From an uncultured Schlesneria sp. (lineage in GTDB: Bacteria > Planctomycetota > Planctomycetia > Planctomycetales > Planctomycetaceae): DNA of 53,409 bases. Below the pieces are notes generated by a model. That model did not search any database, was not told the DNA's origin, and was given only the letters and a program-made list of their open reading frames with translations. Both the position numbers and the translations under genes were made by a program. The stretch is taken from assembly GCA_903899985.1 (NCBI GenBank), contig CAIULL010000187.1:1-53409 (forward strand). Direction: 5' to 3'. Below, piece after piece: positions 49,677 through 50,567 of this stretch (position 1 is its first letter; each line of letters opens with the position of its first letter).

Positions 49677-49905
49677 TCGATCGTATCAGTCCGGCCTGAT
49701 GAAAGGGCCAAACTGTCGAATTGGTAATACTTTTGCGCCCGTTTAGCGGAAAGCGGCCAAAAAACGCGATCGCACGGTTTGAAAGTCTTCGACGAGGCCG
49801 TGCCTTCAAGGTTGGATAACACGTCCGAGGAACACGGTTTTGCCGAATACAGTAAAACGGCACACGGCTTGGTCGATGAGGTAACGCCGGCCGGAAAAAC
49901 GAAAA

Positions 49906-49925
49906 GAGGCGGGATAACCCGCCTC
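49906..49925 (-). terminator. Rho-independent terminator of the small basic protein gene
   Basis: On the minus strand an 8-bp stem GAGGCGGG / CCCGCCTC with a TTAT loop is followed by TTTTCGTTTTT. It lies 65 nt beyond the stop of the 32-residue gene (49990-50088). The shape and the T-run make a strong intrinsic terminator. Confidence 0.8.
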
Positions 49926-49989
49926 GTTCTCACTTTTGAAGACGACAACTCGGATGAACGAGAAGCGTCATAATCCGGCAGACGCCAGA

Positions 49990-50088
49990 CTATACACCCA
50001 GCTTCTTACGACGAGCCTTACGAGCCTTTGAGCTTGCTGGTCGCTTGCCGTGATTTGCTTTGTTGACCTTGCGGTTGGTTTTTGCTAT
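49990..50088 (-). CDS. Small basic protein (32 residues) with apparent AUA start
   Basis: The frame encodes I/M-AKTNRKVNKANHGKRP, ASSKARKARRKKLGV and then TAG. It is very basic and resembles short ribosome-associated proteins. GGAG (50096-50099) lies 7 nt before an ATA codon (50086-50088), where ATG would be expected. The open frame extends upstream to a TGA but contains no ATG, GTG or TTG, so no canonical start exists. A promoter (50179-50207) and an intrinsic terminator (49906-49925) bracket the gene, which supports real transcription. My memory of similar planctomycete proteins is weak, so homology is not claimed. A G-to-A change or base error in the start codon is an alternative. Confidence 0.65.
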   Translation of the reverse strand: MAKTNRKVNKANHGKRPASSKARKARRKKLGV

Positions 50089-50178
50089 TTTTGTTCTCCG
50101 AAGTTTCGATGCAGCGGCAGTGCCGCATTCATTGTCATCTGAAAAGTCATTTCCGAACCGATGCGAGATCGGCCCAAC

Positions 50179-50207
50179 ATGATAGCAGAACGTTTTTCAA
50201 TTGAAAA
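50179..50207 (-). promoter_or_regulatory. Sigma-70-like promoter of the small basic protein gene
   Basis: On the minus strand TTTTCA (50202-50207), 17-nt spacer and TATCAT (50179-50184): four and five of six matches to the consensus. It implies a leader of about 84 nt with a small hairpin (GCGGC-AGT-GCCGC, 50112-50124) before the SD. Confidence 0.55.
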
Positions 50208-50338
50208 GCGTGACAATCGTTTTCGGCTGACGGGGGGAGAGCCGCGACTTAAATAACATTTTTATGATAAGGGCTGGCGCAGCGTTTCGGCTGATCACTG
50301 GATTGTGTGCGAATGACGTGTGGTTGGCGTTATGTTCC

Positions 50339-50380
50339 GGGGTCGGGTGTTCAAATTTTGAAATTTGAACACCCGACCCC
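50339..50380. repeat. Perfect 20-bp inverted repeat with 2-nt loop
   Basis: GGGGTCGGGTGTTCAAATTT, TG, then its exact reverse complement AAATTTGAACACCCGACCCC. A 42-nt near-perfect palindrome with 10 G:C pairs at the outside. Located between the small basic protein gene and the rpoN stop; both genes read leftward. It could terminate rpoN transcription or be a miniature mobile element. Confidence 0.85.
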
Positions 50381-50567
50381 TCTTTGCTCCCGATCAACGC
50401 GCAATCGATAAGCCTATTCTAAACCCGTCGCCCGACGTGCACTCACCGGCTGTGCCGGCCAATTTTGAAATTTGAACGCCCGACCCCTTCTTCGAGATCG
50501 ATCAACTTACGAAGGATCAGCCTCTTTTAAACCCATCGTCTGACACGCACAGATCGGCTGAGCCGGT
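50354..50567. repeat. Imperfect tandem duplication, two units of about 107 bp
   Basis: Unit 1 (50354-50460) and unit 2 (50461-50567) begin AATTTTGAAATTTGAAC and share GCCCGACCCC-like, GATCAAC, AAACCC(G/A)TCG and CCGGC blocks along the length. Unit 2 ends at the stop codon of rpoN. Divergence of a few tens of percent indicates an old duplication. Confidence 0.75.

Follow-up and report, generated by a model that had tools for sequence, protein, structure and literature searches.

The single-copy gene for ribosomal protein bL37 in a planctomycete genome of the Schlesneria group carries ATA at the position where its relatives have a canonical start codon. The explanation that we judge best, with a probability of about 0.6, is that an ATG-to-ATA transition took place on the genome's own lineage and that the resulting AUA is used for initiation at a reduced level. 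The gene lies on the minus strand of a stretch of DNA of 53,409 nucleotides (the window), which is contig C187 of a draft assembly of 8,007,946 bases in 296 contigs (G000).

The gene and its expression signals

The open frame that holds the gene runs from 50196 to 49990 on the minus strand and comprises 68 codons from stop to stop. As claimed in a sequence-only reading that preceded this analysis, the frame contains no ATG, GTG, or TTG: its translation lacks methionine, and its valine and leucine codons are GTT, GTC, GTA, CTT, and CTG. The coding sequence of bL37 (49993..50088, minus strand) consists of 32 codons counted from the ATA at 50086..50088, and it is followed by the stop codon TAG at 49992-49990. 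A Shine-Dalgarno sequence, GGAG (50096..50099, minus strand), precedes the ATA with a spacer of 7 nt, AACAAAA, a position that bears out the earlier claim of initiation directed to the ATA.

The promoter (50179..50207, minus strand) consists of TTTTCA, a spacer of 17 nt, and TATCAT, the latter preceded by TG, i.e., an extended -10 element. It is one of two sites that the promoter scan found in 49850-50350 on both strands together, where shuffled sequences lead one to expect 0.3. Downstream of the gene lies an intrinsic terminator (49906..49925, minus strand), in which a stem of 8 base pairs is followed by a T-rich tail, TTTTCGTTTT; the terminator scan gave two terminators on both strands together against 0.7 expected. 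The promoter, the correctly spaced Shine-Dalgarno sequence, and the terminator of the earlier reading are thus all present, with the terminator lying beyond the segment 49990..50207 to which that reading had assigned the gene. These signals are shared with the three nearest relatives, G004 (the closest), G001, and G005. The Shine-Dalgarno stretch TTCGGAGAACAAA is identical and the -10 region TCTGCTATNNT is conserved in all four aligned sequences, and the terminator stem, read by eye in the alignment, can form in all four, G001 and G005 having a G-U pair in it.

Upstream of bL37 on the same strand lie the genes for sigma-54 (rpoN), then recR, then a YbaB-family gene. On the opposite strand, the end of a gene for an AAA/SMC-like ATPase lies some 0.4 kb away from bL37. 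The stretch between rpoN and the promoter of bL37 holds, at 50339-50380 and 50471-50487, a palindrome of TTTGAACACCCGACCCC with a third near copy. Its 17-mer is present 32 times in the window's own genome, 34 times in G004, 19 times in G001, and 9 times in G005, and is missing from the remaining 17 of the 21 genomes searched; it is a REP-like element of one clade.

A side effect of the change to ATA is a new TAG in frame with ATGs that lie upstream, near 50150 and 50132. Coupling of this stop to the bL37 start through an overlapping upstream ORF was considered and rejected: in the alignment, read by eye, the four sequences differ at several amino acids of the upstream frame, and the frame continues through the three sequences that have ATG.

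Identity of the protein

With methionine typed at residue 1, the 32-residue protein matches the NCBIfam model NF047429 (ribo_Plancto_bL37) with 56.5 bits over 30 of its 32 positions, the cut-off being 40. As encoded in the genome, the match has 48.8 bits and covers positions 2-30, with position 1 left out for lack of a methionine there. By this equivalog profile, the frame is the planctomycete 50S ribosomal protein bL37, which gives a name to the basic, ribosome-like small protein that had been proposed. The mycobacterial/actinobacterial bL37 model, NF047428, gives 23.1 bits, under its cut-off of 30 bits, and in Pfam the 32-residue protein matches no model at E up to 10.

The nearest solved chains are those of mycobacterial bL37 (PDB 7kgb_v and others, E 0.018). 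Actinobacterial bL37, as found in the ribosomes of M. smegmatis, M. tuberculosis, and C. acnes, has a core around RK..KANHGKRP in common with the window protein. It differs from it in length, with chains of 24 residues as against 32, and in a model, NF047428, whose cut-off the window protein does not reach. From the planctomycete bL37 of NF047429, the window protein differs in its start, ATA as against ATG elsewhere (GTG in G478 and G533). Excerpts of two papers, both of which term bL37 actinobacterial, describe the protein of that group as occupying the rRNA pocket H39-H42/H72/H89 and touching H89 near the peptidyl transferase centre (PMC5876184, PMC10085706). A search of a limited literature collection that paired bL37 with planctomycetes found no paper, and for this reason the assignment to a planctomycete bL37 is founded on the NCBIfam model and on the core common to both groups.

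Two other identities were rejected. The bTHX model (PF17070; cut-off 29.7 bits) is over its cut-off in no searched genome of the window's own family, f1, and in the window's own genome it has two matches at E up to 10, both on other contigs, the best with 13 bits. The model for bS22 (COX24_C, PF08213) has no match in the same genome at E up to 1 and none over its cut-off in four genomes. In the sample of 59 genomes, bTHX is over its cut-off in nine (G037, G039, G042, G044, G046, G048, G050, G052, and G055). These nine all belong to other families (f2 and f4), and no genome among the 41 with a match to the bL37 query is one of them; the two proteins never co-occur in this sample.

Copy number and distribution

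Two different bL37 queries, used with E limits of 0.001 and 10, each found a single match in the window's own genome. There is thus no second copy found that could cover for a dead gene, and a missed copy is unlikely because the listed completeness of the genome is 99.97%. Of the 59 genomes searched, 41 have a match at E up to 0.001, and the family survey matched bL37 in 154 of its 170 genomes, the window's own genome being included in both counts. Orthologous proteins, whose absence from relatives had been named at the outset as a reason to give up the gene, therefore exist. Among named genomes, a search by DNA pattern found 13 loci, all in MAGs, of which 10 are named Schlesneria; the window's genome is assigned to the Schlesneria group by this kinship.

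The protein seems to be dispensable over evolution. At E up to 0.001, no match was found in 16 of the 170 family genomes, or in 5 of the 130 good-quality ones. In a sample of the phylum, 297 of 392 genomes gave no match, a number to which divergence and incompleteness also contribute.

Start codons in relatives

Orthologues were compared for ATG or ATA, as had been suggested for a check. Of the 79 relatives in which the bL37 start was read, 77 have ATG and the other 2 GTG; ATA occurs in the window genome alone. All 29 starts of a first set are ATG. The loci L053-L098 number 46 (45 read by motif and L066, missed by the motif, read separately), and since three of them repeat genomes already read they represent 43 genomes, again all ATG. 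The last set consists of two more named loci and three more genomes with ATG, and of two genomes with GTG, namely G478 (locus L141) and G533 (L142). These two were chosen for a profile match that starts only at position 2 and are not a random draw. Among the matches listed in the family survey, a match beginning at position 2 is found only in G478, G533, and the window's own genome, and the matches that begin later, in G523 and in a second piece in G033, are at contig ends. Some weak, sub-cut-off matches in other families of the phylum sample, outside the set of 79, begin at positions 2 to 4.

A canonical start, present in all 79 members read, is thus absent here; the NF047429 model does not require one. 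As aligned, the ATA departs from the conserved start codon in one base only, with A in place of G.

Constraint on the coding sequence

The aligned DNA of the bL37 region is 83-92% identical to G004. Within codons 2-32, the base differences between the window and its relatives are five synonymous and no nonsynonymous for G004, six and none for G001, and five and none for G005. Synonymous changes make up 69 of the 279 possible single changes in these codons, and under no constraint and equal rates the probability of five synonymous changes out of five against G004 is about 0.0009. Amino-acid changes do occur in more distant relatives (G011 and G002). Two of the synonymous changes are private to the window genome in comparison with G004, G001, and G005. 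Because the changes are synonymous only and the Shine-Dalgarno sequence, -10 region, and terminator are conserved, we infer that bL37 was under selection until recently. Such constraint leaves the current translation of bL37 unproven. The synonymous-only pattern mostly reflects the period that preceded the change of the start codon.

Mutation or error

The most serious competitor of the preferred explanation is that the A is an error of sequencing, of assembly, or of strain mixture and that the true codon is ATG. An error would agree with the restriction of ATA to this one genome among all those read, and with the nature of the source, a draft in many contigs whose 13 named relatives are themselves all MAGs. 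However, the surrounding sequence is not that of a damaged stretch. The conserved genes next to bL37 show no damage, with sigma-54 and RecR at 99% identity to G004, and the two private synonymous changes indicate a normally diverged sequence. A comparison of ORFs, in which the window was set against G004 and G001 and an S10-region contig against G004, with the first six start-type codons taken per row, points the same way: among the rows listed, bL37 alone has a non-start codon in the window's genome where the relative has an ATG preceded by a Shine-Dalgarno-like stretch, and no other such ATG is lost. The rows include shadow frames, and some GTG and TTG codons, maybe internal, differ, so the comparison is not a count of genes. 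All of these observations bear on the quality of the stretch, not on the base at 50086 itself. By judgement and not by computation, a real change is likelier than an error, perhaps by about three to one, and we regard an error as unlikely, though well worth keeping in mind.

Probable initiation at AUA

If the base is real, the course of events would be as follows. A G-to-A transition on the lineage of this Schlesneria-group genome turned the ATG of bL37 into ATA. Ribosomes would still reach the start by means of the strong, well-spaced GGAG, where the initiator tRNA would pair with AUA with a mismatch at the third position. The fMet-bL37 would then be made at a reduced level and in a manner sensitive to IF3.

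Initiation at AUH codons is plausible in this genus in view of its infC gene, which probably starts at AUC or AUU. The conserved position shortly after GAG is ATC in 11 of the 12 infC loci read and ATT in one (G010). These loci come from L103-L117, with that of the window's genome as L106 on contig C113; the locus of G003, near a contig end, was left out. In four of the 12 (G001, G004, G005, and G007), no ATG, GTG, or TTG lies upstream in frame, and in the other eight, including the window's own genome, one lies further upstream; because of these upstream codons, the AUH start of infC is given as probable. Judged by position and conservation, AUH codons near a Shine-Dalgarno sequence very probably serve as starts for the ribosomes of the Schlesneria group.

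Comparable starts are known from S. aureus. According to excerpts of PMC13009471, ribosome profiling found AUA starts of infC, ccpN, and citZ in this organism. In poor medium, the reporters of cvfC1 (AUU), ccpN, and citZ (both AUA) reached about 10% of the AUG level, and in rich medium that of ccpN reached up to 30%. As in the window bL37, a Shine-Dalgarno sequence precedes the weak AUA or AUU of infC, ccpN, cvfC1, and citZ. The parallel is close for citZ, whose AUA is confined to one strain lineage, much as the ATA of bL37 is seen in one genome. The S. aureus starts were mapped by ribosome profiling, whereas the ATA of bL37 is known here from sequence alone, and those of ccpN and cvfC1 are described as conserved, whereas that of bL37 is not. 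Excerpts of PMC11497404 hold nothing on AUA as a start codon. The AUH starts of infC in the genus and the S. aureus reporters together lead one to expect weak, IF3-sensitive production of bL37.

Against the use of AUA at a reduced level, it counts that this depends on a single draft assembly in which the base may be a consensus error. It also counts that a protein needed once per ribosome would suffer at about a tenth of the start strength, unless bL37 is dispensable; a reduced dose may be tolerated because bL37 can be absent over evolution.

The change may also be real and the gene silent, or almost so, in which case the lineage would live without bL37 and decay would be yet to come. The apparent dispensability of bL37 would suit such a state, as would, by analogy only, the uL30 extension that fills the bL37 pocket in Borrelia according to an excerpt of PMC10618245. 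However, the promoter, the Shine-Dalgarno sequence, codons 2-32, and the terminator are free of decay, and the S. aureus examples show that AUA starts function elsewhere. We consider silence of the gene improbable.

In E. coli, infC starts with AUU and is autoregulated by IF3. A similar role for the bL37 start, i.e., an AUA selected as a regulatory start, such that rejection of AUH codons by IF3 makes bL37 track IF3 as infC does, is the least probable of the explanations and can be set aside almost entirely. A strong Shine-Dalgarno sequence and the probable AUC or AUU start of infC in the same genus would be in keeping with it, and an AUH start, with the discrimination by IF3 expected from it, is common to bL37 and E. 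coli infC. In contrast to the product of E. coli infC, bL37 is a different protein from IF3 and does not itself feed back on the choice of start codon. Moreover, a regulatory start should be conserved, as the non-AUG start of an IF3-type gene is among orthologues; the ATA is seen only here, and autoregulation through a conserved AUA is thus unsupported. The leader together with the gene folds no better than shuffled sequences (z 0.16). A regulatory RNA in the leader was rejected, as three weak Rfam matches near the gene are all far below the gathering score (the best, PrrB_RsmZ, has E 0.023 and 19.5 bits against a gathering score of 44), and over the whole window no Rfam match is above threshold. 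Mutation or error is more likely than control as the source of the ATA. When the sequence-only reading offered an autoregulatory start or a mutation, it is therefore the mutation that agrees with the one-base difference and with 79 relatives free of ATA, and the infC-like autoregulation that lacks support.

A real and used AUA, whether selected or not, would place bL37, a protein next to the peptidyl transferase centre if it resembles its actinobacterial relatives, under discrimination by IF3. With infC itself started at AUC, the share of ribosomes that carry bL37 might then vary with the level of IF3, a reading that we hold to be improbable.

Implications

Both the protein and this type of weak start are already known, and what is new is a start variant in one genome, a modest addition. 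In practical terms, gene finders limited to ATG, GTG, and TTG will miss the bL37 gene of the window, and they may also miss or misplace the infC starts of the genus. If the base is real, the gene would offer a natural experiment on the extent to which AUA can sustain the gene of a ribosomal protein, and likewise on the need for a full dose of bL37.
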